From: an uncultured Bacteroidota bacterium
GTDB lineage: Bacteria; Bacteroidota; Bacteroidia; Flavobacteriales_F; PHOS-HE28
Assembly (NCBI GenBank): GCA_902826215.1
Contig: CADEDY010000002.1
Span: 186,001-250,000, forward strand
Length of the DNA stretch: 64,000 nt
Direction: 5' to 3'
Below are positions 10,070 through 38,497 of the stretch, piece by piece. A program made the translations under genes and the position numbers. The notes beneath the pieces were generated by a model that had not been told where the DNA came from, did not search any database, and worked only from the letters and a program-made list of their open reading frames with translations. How positions within the stretch are numbered: the stretch's first letter is position 1; the number at the start of each line of letters is the position of its first letter.

Positions 10070-10825
10070 TCAGCCTTCGGCGAGCGCGTTCTCCACTTCT
10101 TCGCTCAACTCCATGTTGTGGTAAACGTCGTTCACGTCCTCGTCCTCATCCAAAAGGTCGATCAGGCGCATCACGTTCTTCGCCACATCCACATCGGTCA
10201 CGGGAATGGTGGACAAGGGGAACCGTTTCAGTTCGGCACTCTTCGTTTCCACGCCCAGTTGTTCCAGCTTCTGGGCCATGCTTCCAAAGGCCGTATAGGG
10301 GGCGAGGATCACCATGCCTTCTTCATCACGATGGACATCGTCCGCTCCAGCATCGATGCATTCCATCTCGAATTCGTCCGCATCGCGGCCTTCCAACGTA
10401 GCAGCCTCGACAACGAATTCGGCCTTGCGGTCGAACACGTGCGCCAGTGATCCCGTGGTGCCCAAGGTTCCGTCGCATTTGCTGAAGAAGCTTCGCACAT
10501 TCGCCACGGTGCGTGTTGGGTTGTTGGTAGCCGTTTCCACGAAGATGGCCACGCCTCCTGGAGCATAGCCCTCATAGGTCATTTCCGAGAAGTCGGCCTC
10601 GCTTCCTCCCGCGGCCTTCTTGATCGCGCGATCCACGTTGTCCTTGGGCATGTTCATGCCACGTGCGTTTTGGATCGCCATCTTCAGCCGGGAGTTCGAA
10701 TCCGGATTGGGGCCCCCGGCCTTCACGGCCATGGCGATCTCTTTCCCGATGCGGGTGAAGAGTTTACTGAGTTTGGCGTTACGTGCGAAGATCTTGTGCT
10801 TGCGCTTCTCGAAAATGCGGCCCAT
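10070..10825 (-). CDS. yebC: YebC/PmpR family protein
   Basis: 251 residues, full length. It begins MGRIFEKRKHKIFARNAKLSKLFTRIGKEI; most relatives begin AGHSKWANIKHRK, so the N-terminus is the variant seen in Bacteroidota. The conserved stretches NARGMNMPKDNVDRAIKKA, YEGYAPGGVAIFVE and TDNxNRT-like ETATNNPTRTVANVR are present. Family members act as DNA-binding regulators or, as shown for some relatives, as ribosome-associated factors; which applies here is open. It is monocistronic with its own -7 box. Confidence 0.94.
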   Translation of the reverse strand: MGRIFEKRKHKIFARNAKLSKLFTRIGKEIAMAVKAGGPNPDSNSRLKMAIQNARGMNMPKDNVDRAIKKAAGGSEADFSEMTYEGYAPGGVAIFVETATNNPTRTVANVRSFFSKCDGTLGTTGSLAHVFDRKAEFVVEAATLEGRDADEFEMECIDAGADDVHRDEEGMVILAPYTAFGSMAQKLEQLGVETKSAELKRFPLSTIPVTDVDVAKNVMRLIDLLDEDEDVNDVYHNMELSEEVENALAEG

Positions 10826-11006: not shown

Positions 11007-12014
11007 CTAGTTGAACCCGATGATGGTGAGGCCGACATTGAACGGTGTCAGCTCAGGTCCCTTGTTATCCGCGAACAGCGGTGTGAGTGCGTATTCGGCG
11101 AACAAGTTCAAACTTCCATAGCCGATCCTGACCGAAGCGGCAGCGCGGTACGGGAGCAGGTAGTGTTCTCCCTTATCGATATCCTTCTGCGTGGTGCCAT
11201 CCAAGCGATACTTCTGCTTGTACATGCTGTCGTAGTACCAGGTGCCCACGACGCCTACTGCTACATGGAAGTTCTTCTTGTTATTGAATTCATAGCTCGG
11301 CGGGCGCTTGCCACCGACCGTATCCCGGGAAGCGGTTTGCATTTCCTCGGCTGTGGGCATCTTCGCTTTCTTCGAATTGAACTCCAACATCAACGGGACG
11401 CGGATGCCGCTCTGGCGCAATTTGTTCTTGCGGAACTGTGGACTTTCGACCGGTATGGCGAAGATCGAGTCGTTGGTGAACTGAAGCAGGTTGTTCCCTT
11501 TCAAGCGATAGCTGGTGAACTCCCATCCAAGTCCGGTGAGCAGACCGAAATGGTGCGAACCGAACTCGATCTTCTGTTCCATGAAGTTGATCGATACGAA
11601 ACGGGAGTTCGCTTGATCCAACTCCATATATTCCGATCCCTTGGGCAAGTTCGTGCTGCCATCCGGACCGAGTAACATGTTCAATCCCACGTCGATACCG
11701 CTCCAATAGGTGAACTGGTTCCGTCGCTCTGTGCGCAAGTCCTTCAAGCGGTCGGCGATGCTATCCTCCTCCGATGCCCAATCGCGGGGTTCCGAGATGA
11801 TCGTGATCTTCTTGCGCTGGGTCGTGATGACCAGTGGATTCGACTTCTTGGTGGTGTCGATGGGTGTAACCCGGGCGAAAGCCCCGTCCTTCGAGTTCAC
11901 CCCCAAGGATAAGGCGTGACTTTCCGATTGCTCGGGTGTAGCCGTGCTGTCCTGTTGGGCTTGCGTGAGCGAGCCAAGGGATATCAGTAGGATGGAGGCG
12001 AGGATCTTCTTCAT
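11007..12014 (-). CDS. PorT-like outer-membrane beta-barrel protein
   Basis: 335 residues with a clear signal peptide (MKKILASILLISLGSLTQAQ). A polar N-terminal stretch (about 21-90, with RKKITIISEPRDWASEEDS) leads into alternating strands typical of a small outer-membrane barrel (YWSGIDVGLNMLL, HHFGLLTGLGWEFTSYRL, FHVAVGVVGTWYYDS, LNLFAEYALTPLF), ending in an aromatic-poor GLTIIGFN. The anti-sigma gene nearby also ends with a barrel-like tail region. Its upstream region carries the same CCTGTAAC/CCGTCCTA pair as the ECF sigma gene, so it probably belongs to that sigma factor's regulon. Exact role unknown. Confidence 0.8.
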   Translation of the reverse strand: MKKILASILLISLGSLTQAQQDSTATPEQSESHALSLGVNSKDGAFARVTPIDTTKKSNPLVITTQRKKITIISEPRDWASEEDSIADRLKDLRTERRNQFTYWSGIDVGLNMLLGPDGSTNLPKGSEYMELDQANSRFVSINFMEQKIEFGSHHFGLLTGLGWEFTSYRLKGNNLLQFTNDSIFAIPVESPQFRKNKLRQSGIRVPLMLEFNSKKAKMPTAEEMQTASRDTVGGKRPPSYEFNNKKNFHVAVGVVGTWYYDSMYKQKYRLDGTTQKDIDKGEHYLLPYRAAASVRIGYGSLNLFAEYALTPLFADNKGPELTPFNVGLTIIGFN

Positions 12015-12033
12015 GGTCGTGGTCTTCTGTATC

Positions 12034-12064
12034 TAGGACGGACTCGTGCAGGCGTTGTTACAGG
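12034..12064 (-). promoter_or_regulatory. ECF-type promoter of the PorT-like gene
   Basis: On the minus strand: CCTGTAAC (plus 12064-12057), 15 bp spacer, CCGTCCTA (plus 12041-12034), then 19 nt to the ATG. The same pair occurs before the TonB-like gene and, with a varied -10, before the ECF sigma gene. Confidence 0.65.
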
Positions 12065-12080
12065 CGTCTAAGAAAAAGCA

Positions 12081-12103
12081 GAAGCCCCGCTTAGCGGGGC
12101 TTC
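12081..12103 (-). terminator. Rho-independent terminator of the TonB-like gene
   Basis: Perfect 10-bp stem GAAGCCCCGC / GCGGGGCTTC with a 3-nt loop, followed on the minus strand by TGCTTTTTC. It lies 23 bp past the stop of the TonB-like gene and upstream of the barrel promoter. Confidence 0.9.
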
Positions 12104-12126
12104 ATAAGCTTTAGGGTGTTCAGCTA

Positions 12127-12498
12127 TCAAGCCTTCTCACGGTGGAAGTTGAACCGCATGTGCGTGGTCTTCCAGCTACCCTCCGGGTTATCGCCGATGT
12201 CGATGCGTGCCAGCTTGCGGAGTACATAGCTCTTGAGGCGCTCGTTCGCCGAGTTGCACTCCAGCACTTCGATCCGTCCTTCCGTGTTGATCACGAAACT
12301 GACGAAGACCTCTCCGGTCATATCCGCTCGATCCAGCAATGGATACGAGATGTTGTTCCGAAGTGCGCGATCCAAGCTCCGTTCCAGGTTGGAGCGCTTT
12401 GTATTCGCGGGAACACGGAGTGGTTCTGCGGCCCGTGTATAGCCGAAGGTGAATACCGTAGCGAACAGAAGCAGTGTGCGGGTGATGGTGGTTTTCAT
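12127..12498 (-). CDS. Small exported protein with TonB C-terminal-like domain
   Basis: 123 residues: a signal peptide (MKTTITRTLLLFATVFTFGYTRA) and then a single domain with LDRALRNNISYPLLDRADMTGEVFVSFVINTEGRIEVL. This is the pattern of the TonB C-terminal/energy-transducer fold (PxxxxGxVxVxFxVxxxGxI). There is no membrane anchor besides the signal and no proline-rich linker, so it is unlikely to be a working TonB. It has its own ECF-type promoter and a strong terminator, and is probably a target of the neighbouring sigma factor. Confidence 0.78.
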   Translation of the reverse strand: MKTTITRTLLLFATVFTFGYTRAAEPLRVPANTKRSNLERSLDRALRNNISYPLLDRADMTGEVFVSFVINTEGRIEVLECNSANERLKSYVLRKLARIDIGDNPEGSWKTTHMRFNFHREKA

Positions 12499-12527
12499 GG
12501 CCGTGTGGTGTTGGTCCTATTTGTTCA

Positions 12528-12559
12528 TAGGACGGTGATCCTCCAGGGTCAGTTACAGG
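12528..12559 (-). promoter_or_regulatory. ECF-type promoter of the TonB-like gene
   Basis: On the minus strand: CCTGTAAC (plus 12559-12552), 16 bp spacer, CCGTCCTA (plus 12535-12528), 29 nt before the ATG at 12498. Both boxes are identical to those of the PorT-like gene. Confidence 0.65.
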
Positions 12560-12651
12560 GTTCGGGAGGGATCGTGATGAACGGCGAGGAGGGTGGTATG
12601 AGCGGAGATGCCGCCACAGCTTGTACCGAAAACGCGTGATCGGATCAAGGA

Positions 12652-13986
12652 TCAACGACTCGCAGTGATGCCGAGCTTCCGCCCCAATCGCAACTGGAAA
12701 GCGTTCACACCACCGTCTTCGCCACGGCCCACAGTGAGTCCCGAGTGATGGCCACCAACGACCTTCAGGCCACGATCCACGGCGGCCACTGCATCATCAC
12801 CGTCCAAGGGGTCGGTGTTCCGGTCGGTTTCATCCAAAACCGTTCCACGGACCGTGGCAGCAAGTAATCCGCCCAGCGATGTCGGTTGCTCCATAGCACG
12901 AACAGTGGAAGGGGTGCGCTCCGGCACTTGGGCCAATTGCTCGACCGGCGGGGCAGTAGTATCCGGCACTTTCTTGGGTGCCTGTTGAGGCAATTCCTGG
13001 TGTTCGGGAACCGGCTGGCTAACGGGCGTGCCACCTTCAACGGGTGCTACTGGCATCTGCGATCCAGAGCCCTTGATCGGAAGTACGGATGGTTTTGGAG
13101 CTTGTTGGTTATTCACCTCCGGGTTTTCCGGGACGATAGCTCCTTCGGGTTCTTTTAGTGCTGTCTGTGCCAATGCATCAGGCGTTGCCTCGGTGGCCGG
13201 CGTGATTGTCGGTGAAGCATTCTTCGGCACCTGAACGATCTCAGGGGCTCGTGGGGAACGCATCAGTAGGAACCAAGCACCAAAGCCGAATAGAAGAGCA
13301 ATGGAGGCGGCAGCCGCAAAACGTAGCATCGAGCGCCCAGCCCCGATCGGAATGGCACGCCCACCCTTCTTCAGTTCCGCCTTCGACCGGTAGGGTAGGA
13401 GTTCCGGATCGATCCGTGCGGCTTGCACCAACCGTTGCTGTTGCCGCGCTTCTTGATGTTGGCTCAGGTATACTTCGAGCGCTTGTTCTTGCGAGGGTTC
13501 CAAGTCCCCTTCCAGTTGCGCAACAAGATGGTCGGTCAAGGTGAATGCATTCAGATGAGAAGTGGGTGGGAAATGGCGCTCCAGCTCCTGTTTCCCAGTG
13601 AATCGCTCCGAAATGGACTCCGACCGCGTTAATGTGTACAGCCGCTCCACACGTTGCAGTTCGGGGTGCTCTTTAAGGTAGGCGGCCAAGGCCACAAGCT
13701 CCTTGGCTCCAAGGTCACCTTCCAGTCGAGCGATGATATGGTCCTCCGCATTCACACGACTGATCGGCCCCGTTGGTGGAAGTGCACGTTTGAGCGCTTC
13801 CTTCTCCGCAGTGGATAACTGGTCGGCGATCGCCGTGACCGTGGGCAGATCATCCACGATAGGAACCAGTTCCGGATACAGCAACAGAAAAGCATCGAGT
13901 TCCCGTTCTTGGTCAGGGGCGAGCATCCCATCCAGACGGTCAAGCAGCCAGGCTTCGTAGTTGGTATGGTCGATGTGTCCGTTCAA
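12652..13986 (-). CDS. Anti-sigma-like membrane protein with three N-terminal repeats
   Basis: 444 residues. The cytoplasmic part holds three divergent copies of one helical module at about residues 10-44, 80-115 and 150-185. Each has the pattern DHxxxRLEGDLxxxQExxLxxYLxxHPEL, resembling anti-sigma zinc-finger modules but with no Cys or zinc-binding His. One membrane helix follows (LRFAAAASIALLFGFGAWFLLM, about 221-242), then a long Pro-rich periplasmic linker and a C-terminal region (GLKVVGGHHSGLTVGRGEDGG...). Its ATG overlaps the ECF sigma stop by 4 bp. The position strongly implies that it restrains that sigma factor; inhibition itself is inferred. Confidence 0.82.
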   Translation of the reverse strand: MNGHIDHTNYEAWLLDRLDGMLAPDQERELDAFLLLYPELVPIVDDLPTVTAIADQLSTAEKEALKRALPPTGPISRVNAEDHIIARLEGDLGAKELVALAAYLKEHPELQRVERLYTLTRSESISERFTGKQELERHFPPTSHLNAFTLTDHLVAQLEGDLEPSQEQALEVYLSQHQEARQQQRLVQAARIDPELLPYRSKAELKKGGRAIPIGAGRSMLRFAAAASIALLFGFGAWFLLMRSPRAPEIVQVPKNASPTITPATEATPDALAQTALKEPEGAIVPENPEVNNQQAPKPSVLPIKGSGSQMPVAPVEGGTPVSQPVPEHQELPQQAPKKVPDTTAPPVEQLAQVPERTPSTVRAMEQPTSLGGLLAATVRGTVLDETDRNTDPLDGDDAVAAVDRGLKVVGGHHSGLTVGRGEDGGVNAFQLRLGRKLGITASR

Positions 13987-14468
13987 AGCACGAGGTCCAA
14001 TTGTCCGATGTAATTCTTCAAAGCCGTGCGTCCACGGTAGATGTACACTTTCACCTGGGCCAAGCTCAAACGTGTCAGTTCGGCGATCTCATCATAGCTG
14101 TACCCCTCCAGATCGCGCAACAGCACTACACTCCGTTGAATATCGGGTAAGGTGGCGAGCGCGGAGTCGAGGATCGCCTTCAGGTCCGGTTGAGCGGTCG
14201 TTGTAGCCGAAAGATGGGTGTGGTGGTCTTCCATTCGCTGGCTCCGTTGTCCTTTGCGCACTTCATCCACCATGATGTGATGCGCCGTGGTGAAGAGGTA
14301 GCTTTTAGCCTTGGTCCCCTCCACGTCATCCACCCTGATCCACAGCCGGGCGAAGCTCTCCTGCACCACATCCTTGGCGAGGTCTTCGTCGCGGAGGTGT
14401 TTCACCGCGAAGCGATAGATGCCATCGGCATGCAGGTCCACGGCGGTATTGTAATCAGCGAGCGTCAT
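13983..14468 (-). CDS. ECF RNA polymerase sigma factor
   Basis: 161 residues, normal for ECF sigma factors. Region 2 is at about 10-75 (YRFAVKHLRDEDLAKDVVQESFARLW, KSYLFTTAHHIMVDEVRK) and region 4 at about 105-155 (LPDIQRSVVLLRDLEGYSYDEIAEL, LSLAQVKVYIYRGRTALKNYI). It overlaps the downstream anti-sigma-like gene by ATGA, so the two are translationally coupled. Its own upstream region carries CCTGTAAC plus a CGTC box, matching the promoters of two neighbours, so it likely drives itself. Confidence 0.95.
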   Translation of the reverse strand: MTLADYNTAVDLHADGIYRFAVKHLRDEDLAKDVVQESFARLWIRVDDVEGTKAKSYLFTTAHHIMVDEVRKGQRSQRMEDHHTHLSATTTAQPDLKAILDSALATLPDIQRSVVLLRDLEGYSYDEIAELTRLSLAQVKVYIYRGRTALKNYIGQLDLVL

Positions 14469-14498
14469 CAGCGGGTGAGGGAACCCGTTATTCTCCTG

Positions 14499-14529
14499 TG
14501 TGACGAGGGAGTTCTGCGAAAGTTACAGG
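14499..14529 (-). promoter_or_regulatory. Probable autoregulatory ECF promoter of the sigma gene
   Basis: On the minus strand: CCTGTAAC (plus 14529-14522), 15 bp spacer, TCGTCACA (plus 14506-14499), 30 nt before the sigma ATG. The -35 box is identical to those of the two neighbours; the -10 keeps the CGTC core. Confidence 0.55.
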
Positions 14530-14600: not shown

Positions 14601-15491
14601 TCACTTCACCTCGACCACCATGTACTTGCTCATTTTCCAGAAGGCCGCAGGATCCTTGATCTCCAAGTAGGCCAGTTCGTCACCTTGTTCCACGATCGTG
14701 TAGCTGTTCTTCGGGTGCTCGGTCACGAGATGTGCTTTCTTGGCTCCCAATGGGACTCGGTTGGTCTGACGCATATCCACTTCCTTGAATTTGTCGGTGG
14801 CAACATCGCCGCTCATGGATGCCGTTTTGCCGAGGCCGATCAGTCCTCCGGAACGGGTCACAACGCCGCTCTCTTCCAATTCCTTGGTCGTGCCTACAAC
14901 ATAATAGACCGTGTTCATCACATTGGTCTGTTGTTCGATGATCGCTTCGCGCTTGGCGACCTCCAGTTCGATGCTGGTGAGTTGTTCATTCACCTGTTCG
15001 ATCTTGAAATCACGAGCGAGCAGTTCTTCCTTCATACCAGCGATGGACGAATCGCGTGAAGCCAACATGTTGTCCAGGTCCTTCAGTTTCTTGCGCAGTC
15101 CGCGTGCTTCGATCTTGCTCTTGTCCAACCGTTCAGTGAGTTCGGCGATCCGATCGCGGCTCTCCTGCATCAAGCCATTCATCAGCTGCAGGTCCTTTAC
15201 CATGCGGCCGCGTTTGTCCATGTTCAATTCGCCTTCTGCATTCTCGCCAAGGACCTTTTCGCGATCGTCCATCAACGCGATGTTCTGCTCGATCTCATCG
15301 AAGGAGAGTGTCATTTCGCCGATCAGGGAATCGCGCGTTTGTAGTTCATTCTGCAAGCGTTCTACCTCGTTCCGCGCTGCGACCTCTCCTTCGGATGGAC
15401 CGGAGGAACAGGAAGCGAAGCCAACGGCGATCACGATAGCAGCAATGCCTGCCTTTGAGACGCCGACCGATCTGATGACTGGAGTTTTCAT
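14601..15491 (-). CDS. Coiled-coil lipoprotein (Cbp1-like family)
   Basis: 296 residues. A signal peptide ends in a lipobox-like GFASCSS (Cys about 28). A long heptad-rich coiled coil runs over about residues 35-190 (ARNEVERLQNELQTRDSLIGE, RDRIAELTERLDKSKIEARGL). The C-terminal globular part (about 195-296) contains NTVYYVVGTTKELEESGVV and NSYTIVEQGDELAYLEI. Homologues in Bacteroidota are often labelled Cbp1-like collagen-binding adhesins, but nothing here proves binding. It is probably an envelope-anchored structural protein. Confident as a lipoprotein, unsure of role. Confidence 0.8.
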   Translation of the reverse strand: MKTPVIRSVGVSKAGIAAIVIAVGFASCSSGPSEGEVAARNEVERLQNELQTRDSLIGEMTLSFDEIEQNIALMDDREKVLGENAEGELNMDKRGRMVKDLQLMNGLMQESRDRIAELTERLDKSKIEARGLRKKLKDLDNMLASRDSSIAGMKEELLARDFKIEQVNEQLTSIELEVAKREAIIEQQTNVMNTVYYVVGTTKELEESGVVTRSGGLIGLGKTASMSGDVATDKFKEVDMRQTNRVPLGAKKAHLVTEHPKNSYTIVEQGDELAYLEIKDPAAFWKMSKYMVVEVK

Positions 15492-35870: not shown

Positions 35871-38497
35871 CAGTTGACCTTGCCTTGCGCGCCGCTACCG
35901 AGTATGTGCACATAGCCGTTGAGCTGCTTCACCTCGGAACCAGCAAGGCGCGCGAAGGTGACCGTGCAGAGGTAGTAATAGACGCCATCGGGCATGCGCT
36001 CTTGGGTCTCTTTGTAGGTTCCTTGCCAGTTGATGTCCGGATCCTGCGTTTCGAAGACCACGTTGCCCCAGCGGTTGAAGATCTGCAGGTCGATGCGCTC
36101 GACACCCCGGTACGGGAAGGGGCCGAAGAGGTCGTTGGAGCCATCGCCGTTCGGCGTGAAGATGTTCGGCAAGCTGTACTCCGGGCAGTTGTCGCCACAG
36201 ACGGCTTCGCTGAATTCGCTCTCGTTGCCCAACGTGTCGAGTGCCGTGATCCGGTAGCAACCGGCGACGGAGCTTCCGTTCGTGTGGGTGAACAAGGTGT
36301 TCTCCGCACCGGAGATCTCCGCGATCAAACGATAACCACCGCCCAGACTATCCGTGAAGTAGACCCGATAGCCGTACGTGTCGTCCGCGCAGCTTTCGTT
36401 CGGGTTGTTCCAGGTCAGCGTGTTCAAGGGAAGTTCACAGTCGTTCTCGATCATCGCGGACGGCGCACAGGGTGGCGTTCGGTCCTCGGGAATGCCACAC
36501 ACCTCTTGGCTCCAATTCAACAAGGGAGAAACGATCGAGGCGTCGCTATAAGCCCCGGTACTCACGATGTAGTAGCAATATTCCTGCCCGTTGACCAAGT
36601 TGGTATCGGTATAGCTCCCCGTGGTGCTGTTCCCGATCAGCATCCAAGCACCTCCATCGAAGCGATACACATCGTAATTGCTGTTGATCCAAGGGGTGTT
36701 CAACGTCCAGAAGATGGTGAGTTGCTCATCGTTCGGTTCTGTACTGATGAGAACGGAAGAGGCAGCGCTCGTCGATCCGATGATATCCGGTGTTCCCTGA
36801 TCCGCTCGACCGAGCAACTCGACACGATAGACATAGGCTTGCGCTCGGGTGTTCAGCTGATCAACGATCCTCAACGTATCCGGATGGGCAAGGAATGGAT
36901 GCACCGGACTCGTCCAGATCAGTTCATTCGCCGTGGTAAAGCCCACCCCACGATATAGCCTGAACTGATAAGGGCCTGGGCGGGCCATGGTATCCAGATC
37001 GTAAGCGTTGCTCCACTGGACCGTATCCACACCTGCGCTGAAATCGGTAACACCCACGCTCACTTTGGTGATCACCGGAACCTGTCGGTCGAGGATCGCG
37101 CAGAACTCTTCGCTCGCATAGCTCTGCGCTCCATCGGGGAAGACCGCCACCACCATGTAGCAATACTGGTTGCCGATCACCAAGCCATCGCTATCGAAGT
37201 AGCTCGTGCTGTTCAATCCATCGACCGATGCGAGGAGGCTGTAACCGGTGTAATCTGGCACGCCCGTTTCGCAATGGCCTGGATCGAAACCGAACAACCC
37301 GCTTCGGCGGTAGATCAGGTAACCAGTCGCATTGCTGCAAATGCTGGCATCCCAGTTCAATTGGATCGCATCTCCGCTCGGCATCGCCGTGGGGTTCTCC
37401 GGCGCAGGGGCCACCACGGTGATGTTCACGACCCGATAATCCTGCAGTGAAACCGGTTGACCGTTGTCAACGGCATTGAATATCACTTGATACGGTTGCA
37501 GACGAACGTGGCTGCATACCGTATTCCAGTTGAATGCACCGCTAACCGGATTTCCTGCTGAAGGCTCGATGAAACTGGCTGGCGAATTGGCCAAGGTGAG
37601 GGGTTGTCCCAATGCTGTAAGTGTGACCAACTGCGCACTGTTCGGGTCGGAAGCCTGTACACTGAACGTGAGGAAGGTGCCGGCCTCCACACAGGTATCC
37701 GCCTCTTGCCTTATGATGGGCGCCACATTGCTGCAAGGAACCACCGTGATCTGCATGTCGCGGGTGACATATCCTACTTCCACCATGGTGCCGTTCGGGC
37801 GTCGACGCCACTCCCTCACAATGAAGGCGATGTTGTACTCTCCAGCAATGCTTGGCGCATTCCACGTGATCGTGCCGTTCGAGGAGTCGATGTTGTAGTT
37901 GGGGCCAGGGAACGTGTAGCCTTGGATCGGCTGGCTGTTCAGCCCAAGGCAGATCGCCGGTTCGTAGGAGAGGCTGTCCCCATCGGGGTCAACGGCAGCC
38001 GGGTTGTGGATCCACGGTTGATTCAAACAGGCATCCTGGATAGGTGAATTCAAGAATCGAACGGAGCAGTTACCACCTGTGATCGGGGAGATCACCAACC
38101 GCGTTTGAACACTGAATGATTGGGCGATCGAATTCGGAACATTGATGACGCCGCCATTGCGATTCTGATCATCCATCTGCAAGATGAAAACTCCTGGCCC
38201 TGCATAAGTGTGTGTTGTAACGTATTCGCTTCGCCGCAGGTCGCGCGTGACGTCGTCCTGGATATTCGTCCGCGGGATGGTATCCCAGATCGGAGAGTCG
38301 CCGTAGTTGATGGCCAGTTCCGGGCGATCAGCCGGTGCGCTCAACTTGGTGTGCGTGATGATGGTGATCTCGTAGAGCAAGCTGCTCGGTCCTCCCACTT
38401 GGCAAACGATGATCTCCCCGGCGCGGTTGTGCGTGGCCCATGCTCCCATGGAACAGCCGATCGCAAGAAGCAAAAAGAGGGGGCGGAATAGCTTCAT
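35870..38497 (-). CDS. Large secreted protein with T9SS C-terminal domain
   Basis: 875 residues. Signal peptide (LFLLLAIGCSMGAWA), then an N-terminal region with cadherin-like features (DPDGDSLSYEPAIC, AIDNGQP-like NAVDNGQPVSLQDYRV). Several fibronectin-III-like modules occupy about 365-780 (repeated NSNYDVYRFDGGAW, GQEYCYYIVSTGAYS). The C-terminus is the gliding-motility type domain (LPNIFTPNGDGSNDLFGPF, YYLCTVTFARL). It is likely exported by T9SS and anchored to the cell surface. The pairing with ribE occurs in other Bacteroidota as I recall; function unknown. Confidence 0.88.
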   Translation of the reverse strand: MKLFRPLFLLLAIGCSMGAWATHNRAGEIIVCQVGGPSSLLYEITIITHTKLSAPADRPELAINYGDSPIWDTIPRTNIQDDVTRDLRRSEYVTTHTYAGPGVFILQMDDQNRNGGVINVPNSIAQSFSVQTRLVISPITGGNCSVRFLNSPIQDACLNQPWIHNPAAVDPDGDSLSYEPAICLGLNSQPIQGYTFPGPNYNIDSSNGTITWNAPSIAGEYNIAFIVREWRRRPNGTMVEVGYVTRDMQITVVPCSNVAPIIRQEADTCVEAGTFLTFSVQASDPNSAQLVTLTALGQPLTLANSPASFIEPSAGNPVSGAFNWNTVCSHVRLQPYQVIFNAVDNGQPVSLQDYRVVNITVVAPAPENPTAMPSGDAIQLNWDASICSNATGYLIYRRSGLFGFDPGHCETGVPDYTGYSLLASVDGLNSTSYFDSDGLVIGNQYCYMVVAVFPDGAQSYASEEFCAILDRQVPVITKVSVGVTDFSAGVDTVQWSNAYDLDTMARPGPYQFRLYRGVGFTTANELIWTSPVHPFLAHPDTLRIVDQLNTRAQAYVYRVELLGRADQGTPDIIGSTSAASSVLISTEPNDEQLTIFWTLNTPWINSNYDVYRFDGGAWMLIGNSTTGSYTDTNLVNGQEYCYYIVSTGAYSDASIVSPLLNWSQEVCGIPEDRTPPCAPSAMIENDCELPLNTLTWNNPNESCADDTYGYRVYFTDSLGGGYRLIAEISGAENTLFTHTNGSSVAGCYRITALDTLGNESEFSEAVCGDNCPEYSLPNIFTPNGDGSNDLFGPFPYRGVERIDLQIFNRWGNVVFETQDPDINWQGTYKETQERMPDGVYYYLCTVTFARLAGSEVKQLNGYVHILGSGAQGKVN

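Follow-up and report, generated by a model that had tools for sequence, protein, structure and literature searches.

A predicted GTAAC/CGTC promoter shared by an ECF sigma factor gene and candidate outer-membrane targets in Bacteroidota

Do three genes that share a two-box motif in an uncultured Bacteroidota genome belong to one regulon, and is the sigma factor encoded among them the reader of that motif? The locus lies in a 64-kb window (the whole stretch of DNA analysed here) on contig C2 of a genome of 4.16 Mb in 51 contigs, where a run on the minus strand leads from an extracytoplasmic function (ECF) sigma factor gene through an anti-sigma-like and a TonB-like gene to a gene for a predicted outer-membrane β-barrel. 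From comparative sequence analysis we propose that the ECF sigma factor very probably activates its own gene and switches on the TonB-fold protein and the barrel through the promoter GTAAC-N16/17-CGTCnnA. The sites, their positions, their conservation, their persistence where the target genes have moved away and the −10 box that differs jointly at two genes in one family are all observed directly and are described below.

Three CCTGTAAC octamers had been reported at 14522-14529, 12552-12559 and 12057-12064, and all three are present there on the coding (minus) strand, upstream of the sigma, TonB-like and barrel genes, respectively. The spacers of 15, 16 and 15 bp given in the original prediction become, with the base before CGTC included and counting from GTAAC, 16 bp for the sigma gene, 17 bp for the TonB-like gene and 16 bp for the barrel gene. 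The predicted sigma promoter, GTAAC-N16-CGTCACA (14499..14526, minus strand), has its −10 box beginning 37 bp before the start codon of the sigma gene (13983..14468, minus strand), which encodes a 161-residue protein with sigma-70 regions 2 and 4. The predicted promoter of the TonB-like gene (12127..12498, minus strand, 123 residues, predicted secreted) is GTAAC-N17-CGTCCTA at 12528..12556 (minus strand), and the same −10 box, CGTCCTA, ends the predicted barrel promoter GTAAC-N16-CGTCCTA at 12034..12061 (minus strand), in front of the 335-residue barrel gene (11007..12014, minus strand). The anti-sigma-like gene (12652..13986, minus strand, 444 residues), delimited from the open reading frame (ORF) list and an alignment of 24 sequences, has a TTG start and overlaps the sigma stop by four bases.

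Counts alone do not separate these sites from chance. The window contains five copies of CTGTAAC where shuffled sequences have 2.75 on average, and five are reached in 12 of 100 shuffles, so there is no clear excess; the two remaining copies, at 37239 and 62274, are inside long ORFs, and the earlier remark that no further copy sits in an upstream region of the window is correct. In the source genome GTAAC-N16/17-CGTCNYA matches seven times and the pattern read backwards 14 times, a raw count not above its control, which speaks for three coincidental sites and against our proposal. The genome-wide search for the pair that had been suggested as a check thus gave a divided answer: the count does not exceed the reversed control, but place and conservation at the three genes are non-random. 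Since neither the window nor the genome count rises above its control, the case needs position together with conservation across genomes.

Such conservation was found in a genus set of 45 genomes, of which 43, the source genome included, have a sigma match; 42 further loci were fetched, among them the near-duplicate genomes L052/L053, L062/L063 and L057/L059, which are within the counts, and L078, whose sigma frame is broken. With gene starts estimated by BLAST, one mismatch permitted in either box and 400 bp taken upstream of the barrel, the pair precedes the sigma gene in 42 of the 42 loci having upstream sequence (41 exact), the TonB-like gene in 37 of 37 (28 exact, nine with TGTC or GGTC) and the barrel gene in 37 of 37 (35 exact, two with TGTC), the window being included in each count. 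The same scan finds it before the anti-sigma gene in none of 43 loci. GTAAC is exact in all 116 best sites of the three genes, and all 12 mismatches fall on the first base of the −10 box. Comparison of homologous sigma loci from related genomes, also proposed at the outset, therefore bears the idea out, with the pair kept at the sigma, TonB-like and barrel genes.

A stricter count, of exact pairs within 150 bp upstream, gives 40/42 for the sigma gene, 27/36 for the TonB-like gene, 33/36 for the barrel gene and 0/42 for the anti-sigma gene. As controls, the opposite strand has 0 to 1 such pairs, and 300 motifs made by permuting the letters yield no more than 0.10 on average. When all 719 permutations are scored, only GTAAC+CCGT and GTAAC+GTCC come out high (up to 30/36), because they capture the same sites with the register shifted by one base; the next best reaches 5/36. 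With the same three places conserved in dozens of genomes, these exact counts already refute coincidence, to which we assign practically no probability.

The pair also stays with its genes after rearrangement. The TonB-like and barrel genes of L076 and L077 stand on the opposite side of sigma and keep it, three of the four sites having an altered first −10 base. In genome G038 the two genes are 120 kb from sigma on the same contig and in G010 they are on a different contig from it, each time with the exact pair. In genome G043, in which no sigma match was found, the other three genes (anti-sigma, TonB-like and barrel) lie where a contig ends.

Are the boxes a sigma promoter at all? Conserved boxes that come in pairs, at a constant distance, in front of several genes would also fit an operator bound by a DNA-binding regulator that is dimeric or contacts two sites. 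The boxes are asymmetric, however, and their spacing varies by one base, as sigma promoters permit: across the genus the spacer is 17 bp in 37 of 37 TonB-like promoters and 16 bp in 35 of 37 barrel promoters. The distance from site to start codon is mostly 20 to 40 bp for all three genes, and in sites gathered by GTAAC plus xGTC an A that was not part of the query stands three bases past GTC in 94-100% of cases, also against an operator; a T precedes GTAAC in 88-100%. The anti-sigma gene, alone in lacking the pair, behaves as expected of a gene inside an operon. We consider an operator very improbable.

The predicted promoter extends well beyond the genus. The best 80 of 340 sigma loci in named genomes comprise 17 of the genus and 63 from other Bacteroidota, whose sigma factors are 49-57% identical to that of the window and whose titles name Bacteroidales, Prolixibacteraceae, Flavobacteriales and more. 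In each of these 63 outgroup loci the 200 bp before sigma contain a site that deviates at no more than one position, and exact pairs within 150 bp were found at 53/63 sigma, 35/41 barrel and 0/53 anti-sigma genes. A phylum sample that was not picked by motif has the sigma (E≤1e-38) in 5 of 197 other genomes, possibly an undercount as at most 18 candidates per genome were scored, and all five have the pair, two with CGTC and three with CGTA.

No TonB-like gene was found by tblastn in the 63 outgroup loci, and for this reason the TonB-fold target looks particular to the source genus, with the barrel as the widespread one. Among 22 outgroup loci without a local barrel, the genomes of ten were searched, and a barrel relative was found in every one, as part of 13/13 outgroup genomes searched. 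The upstream region of the barrels away from sigma could be read in eight of the ten genomes; six have the exact pair and two have GTAAC-N16-AGTC, an AGTC identical to that of the sigma promoter in the same genome. Nine more distant barrel genes in the same genomes have no exact pair, and one has a site with a single mismatch.

The family of Lishizhenia tianjinensis offers a closer look at the −10 box. Sigma is present in 71 of 120 genomes of this family, and GTAAC-N16/17-NGTC lies within 110 bp before it in 69 of 72 loci; the first −10 base in these 69 is C in 21, A in 28, G in 11 and T in 9. The barrel, present in 50 of the 50 genomes searched, is divergent beside sigma in three and far off in most, and it has a site in 46 of the 50, with first base G in 21, A in 16, T in eight and C in one. 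In the 44 genomes where both sites can be read, both first bases are other than C in 40, the identical base occurring in only 19. It thus seems that in this family CGTC has given way to a more relaxed (A/G/T)GTC at both promoters jointly.

Residue 71 of the sigma factor tracks the −10 base, being R in 108 of 112 C-type cases and non-R in 47 of 54 others, and further residues are associated too. As the association rests on about one clade, we do not claim residue 71 as a specificity determinant. We take the joint shift as evidence for a shared reader of the two promoters and not for a named contact residue.

That reader need not be the sigma encoded here: another ECF sigma of the same cell might read or share the promoters, the sigma gene being merely one target. 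The sigma query has 25 candidate places in the source genome, and CGT-box ECF promoters are often shared, as the authors suggest for the SM6 motif of Flavobacterium psychrophilum in the available text (PMC9723704). The observations that weigh against our proposal can be gathered here. Three of the 72 Lishizhenia-family loci have no sigma site within 110 bp and four of the 50 barrels have no site; L163, L166 and L204 combine a deviant sigma −10 box with CGTC at the barrel; and the tree has four changes of sigma residue 71 and five of the promoter base, with too few independent pairs for significance. The source genome has a second ECF gene (L093; start codon uncertain), of RpoE/SigW type, 28.6% identical to the window sigma and of an unrelated group, and GTAAC-N17-CGTCCCA (G000 C23:57550-57578) lies at its 5′ end. 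An ECF gene of the distant genome G045 (L283), which shares 39% identity with this one, has CTGTAAC-N16-CGTCATA at its start. These two sites at 5′ ends of ECF genes favour another reader, and a sigma cascade or a second reader is possible.

On the other side, the site and the sigma group co-occur in all 63 outgroup loci, none of five tested paralogs has a site, and the −10 box of the Lishizhenia family differs at sigma and the mostly distant barrel together. We therefore regard a different reader as unlikely and retain the sigma of the window as the predicted reader of its own promoter. The five paralogs (L082-L086) are further ECF genes of some genus genomes, 49-54% identical to the sigma, and have neither a recognisable anti-sigma nor a site. 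A small membrane-protein gene comes next after the ECF genes of both L093 and L283.

How far does the regulon reach? A search of the 45 genus genomes with the strict pattern gives 81 matches; the three genes account for 71 of them, and the remaining 10 do not outnumber the 10 of the reversed control, so that a broad regulon in the genus is not backed. Part of the 10 may nevertheless be real, because L137 is at an ATP-binding cassette (ABC) ATPase and L128, L131, L135 and L139 come just before signal-peptide-like ORFs. One further candidate, the site L006/L081, is antisense within an ORF and was discarded. In 20 outgroup genomes there are 37 strict matches versus 13 in the control. Of the 30 inspected, 23 are at sigma or barrel genes and three at ABC ATPases; the last four are scattered, one at a toast-rack lipoprotein gene, one at another ECF gene and two at further places. 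The toast-rack/LiaF-like gene of L308 (1555-2394) has an exact site 24 bp before it. Proteins of this type recall cell-envelope stress systems of Gram-positive bacteria.

An ABC-exporter ATPase is a probable fourth target, judged from its upstream sequence. Its orthologs have the exact pair within 330 bp in 9 of the 30 genus genomes scanned (out of 33 having the gene), where about 0.08 would be expected at equal base frequencies. The source genome is among the nine (L092, G000 C13:27104-27131, with the −10 box 96 bp upstream), and eight further orthologs make up the rest. For another ATPase, which is MacB-like, 27 outgroup relatives were compared, and 11 of them (L314-L323 and L327) have the exact pair within 300 bp, at 99-208 bp upstream; sites of this kind were initially met in L286, L289 and L290. 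Apart from the three sites in the window and the ABC site, the seven strict sites of the source genome include three that can also be read as promoters: that of the second ECF gene, one (L090) placed 28 bp ahead of the gene of a metal-binding-like secreted protein and one (L091) ahead of a gene whose secreted product has an OmpA-like domain. Hence the regulon is probably larger than three genes, and the mix of ABC, ECF, secreted and LiaF-like candidate targets suggests a role in envelope stress or export. The compact, self-activating envelope regulon of the original prediction, with an outer-membrane barrel and a TonB-like protein as targets, is suggested by conservation; it is probably larger, with sites at ABC exporters, a second ECF gene and two genes for secreted proteins.

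The proteins themselves were identified by family models and predicted structures. The sigma matches Pfam Sigma70_r2 (47.6 bits, cut-off 24) and Sigma70_r4_2 (61.3 bits, cut-off 25.7), and with sigma-70 regions 2 and 4 only in 161 residues it is an ECF (group 4) sigma factor. Its best NCBIfam model is NF058625, PG0214/GFO_1088 ECF, at 107.1 bits, below the cut-off of 130; the same model is best for three outgroup sigmas, which like the window sigma stay under 130 bits, and the second best for the window sigma is the SigM subfamily.

The anti-sigma-like gene, an ORF that overlaps sigma and encodes a hydrophobic segment, has a relative in all 42 other genus loci fetched. The window protein has three tandem N-terminal repeats of the NYExxLLDyLEGxL type, one hydrophobic segment, a proline-rich tether and a conserved C-terminal tail; in the alignment of 24 sequences the outgroup proteins mostly have two repeats. 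The repeats resemble a sigma-binding segment, present threefold in the window protein. The class I zinc-type anti-sigma domain zf-HC2 reaches only 11.3 bits in the window protein, under its cut-off of 22.2, and scans of three outgroup anti-sigmas against Pfam gave nothing at E≤0.1.

The TonB-like protein was modelled with AlphaFold2 at a predicted local distance difference test (pLDDT) score of 74 and has the order helix-strand-strand-helix-strand. Its 15 best PDB matches are TonB-type C-terminal domains, the best at E 3.6e-3 and none at E≤0.001, and Pfam TonB_C scores 14.7 bits, below the cut-off of 24.6. The earlier label is right as to the fold, which the model gives as a TonB C-terminal domain, and wrong if taken to mean TonB itself: this is a predicted secreted protein with a single such domain.

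The barrel model (AlphaFold2, pLDDT 84.8) matches PDB entries of the Ail, OmpA and NspA type, the best at E 1.8e-3 and none at E≤0.001, so that by prediction it is a small OmpA/Ail-like barrel. Pfam OMP_b-brl_2 (PF13568) gives 18.2 bits for it, below 27, and 35-50 bits for four of five single-barrel relatives and one of two relatives in which the barrel is fused to a head-GIN domain, a fusion found in some outgroup members. The name PorT-like has to be dropped. The window barrel has no NCBIfam match at E≤1, and one barrel relative reaches only 22.3 bits with the PorT/SprT model of the type IX secretion system (T9SS), NF052311, whose cut-off is 125 bits; these scans rule out a T9SS link by way of PorT.

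How might the circuit operate? The anti-sigma encoded with sigma likely holds it at the inner membrane, and an envelope signal acting on the conserved periplasmic tail of the anti-sigma would release it. Free sigma is predicted to transcribe from GTAAC-N16/17-CGTCnnA its own sigma/anti-sigma operon, the TonB-fold protein and the barrel, and through the shared operon it would raise its own level and that of its inhibitor. The barrel appears as the most constant target found across the phylum. Others look as if they had been added or exchanged, namely the TonB-fold protein in the genus and the ABC exporters, both here and elsewhere. We see in this, as the simplest reading, a self-activating ECF circuit with a small envelope regulon, which probably serves outer-membrane or envelope-stress homeostasis.

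A further question is whether the barrel is only an output, sigma sensing envelope damage through the anti-sigma alone. We lean towards this view: most ECF targets are outputs, and the position of the barrel away from sigma in most Lishizhenia-family genomes argues against an obligate complex. Yet a barrel relative in 63 of 63 sigma-bearing genomes searched (13/13 in the outgroup and 50/50 in the Lishizhenia family) suits a partner, without being proof. The same can be said of the Dma anti-sigmas, which, according to the available text, have a barrel in the same chain (PMC13088901). As a less likely possibility, sigma, anti-sigma and barrel would be one trans-envelope sensor split over three genes throughout Bacteroidota, with the promoters of distant genes kept, and in one family re-tuned together, for balance between sensor and regulator. 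The tethered anti-sigma would span the periplasm and its tail would dock to the barrel made by its own sigma. The barrel as a separate gene in all 63 of those genomes, mostly with a site, suggests a split version without proving it. Of 198 homologs the best 120, with few exceptions close relatives, include no annotated fusion of barrel and anti-sigma. A fused sigma/anti-sigma/barrel protein was likewise absent from those 120 in this weak search.

By analogy, Dma/Das of Bacteroides thetaiotaomicron is the closest published mechanism. As described in the available text, it joins an ECF21 sigma to a dual-membrane-spanning anti-sigma (PMC13088901). The likeness lies in an ECF gene beside an anti-sigma whose N-terminal anti-sigma domain comes with a single membrane helix and a long, disordered tether, and in an outer-membrane barrel within the circuit. 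The Dma barrel forms the C-terminal domain of the anti-sigma itself, whereas the barrel of the window has a gene and a predicted promoter of its own and the anti-sigma there finishes with a short conserved tail. If true, the split sensor would be a dissociated counterpart of Dma.

Two neighbouring genes deserve mention. Next after the barrel gene is a gene at 10070-10825 that we take, by resemblance, to be of YebC/PmpR type. Such a gene also follows the barrel in distant Bacteroidota (L158 8473-9219, L160 8479-9225 and L171 5819-6562), and for this reason a gene order of sigma, anti-sigma, barrel and YebC is possibly ancient. The gene at 14601-15491, on the strand of sigma and upstream of it, matches the NCBIfam model of the collagen-binding glycoprotein adhesin Cbp1 (203.9 bits, cut-off 90), with a trace of a Cbp1-type gene near sigma in one of 42 other genus loci.

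Has this promoter been described before? The sigma-X, sigma-M and sigma-W promoters of Bacillus subtilis have an AAC −35 box, a CGTC/CGAC −10 box and 16-17 bp spacing. Those belong to another phylum and regulon, and the −35 box here is GTAAC. An ECF classification paper reportedly gives promoter predictions for ECF groups. A GTAAC/CGTC promoter of a Bacteroidota ECF was not found in the literature searched, which left most subscription journals outside. The original prediction that this promoter seems not to be described stands to that extent, but a CGT-box motif whose members include a sigma/anti-sigma pair has been published as SM6, which the available text gives as ECF-type promoters with a CGT box at −10 (PMC9723704). 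Besides the sigma, of ECF type, and its anti-sigma, SM6 takes in an ABC-transporter ATPase and the T9SS genes PorU and GldN (PMC9723704). The −10 CGT box, the sigma/anti-sigma pair and the ABC ATPase are thus shared with our system, a comparison made by text, the available part of which names no −35 box (PMC9723704). SM6 drives PorU and GldN, whereas the four strict sites of the source genome outside the window are at no gene named T9SS by NCBIfam.

In Porphyromonas gingivalis, the available text reports that the sigma, the putative anti-sigma and the next three genes of PG_0214-PG_0218 rise together, 5- to 11-fold, in one mutant with peroxide (PMC10101095), a joint rise that fits a self-activating operon. 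A DUF4252 gene follows the anti-sigma in that cluster, at the place of the TonB-fold gene in the window, and the available text gives no promoter for the cluster. SigP of the same species is likewise a Bacteroidota ECF with outer-membrane targets, but the available texts give it an unrelated A-rich proposed motif and have it act with the PorXY two-component system on T9SS genes (PMC4800418, PMC8265659). All in all, the system falls outside each of the named ECF families, and its proposed mechanism is not of a new kind.

The predicted promoter holds from the source genus to Bacteroidales, Prolixibacteraceae and the Lishizhenia family, with one nearly constant target, the barrel. To our knowledge, Bacteroidota have many ECF sigma factors and few with a known promoter or regulon, and we know the outer-membrane stress response of this phylum only as poorly mapped. 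The −10 box of the Lishizhenia family, at sigma and at a mostly distant barrel, amounts to a natural experiment on how an ECF sigma and its promoters change together. The sites suggest a regulon in any genome that has this sigma, and through them the sigma/anti-sigma/barrel circuit becomes testable in laboratory strains.

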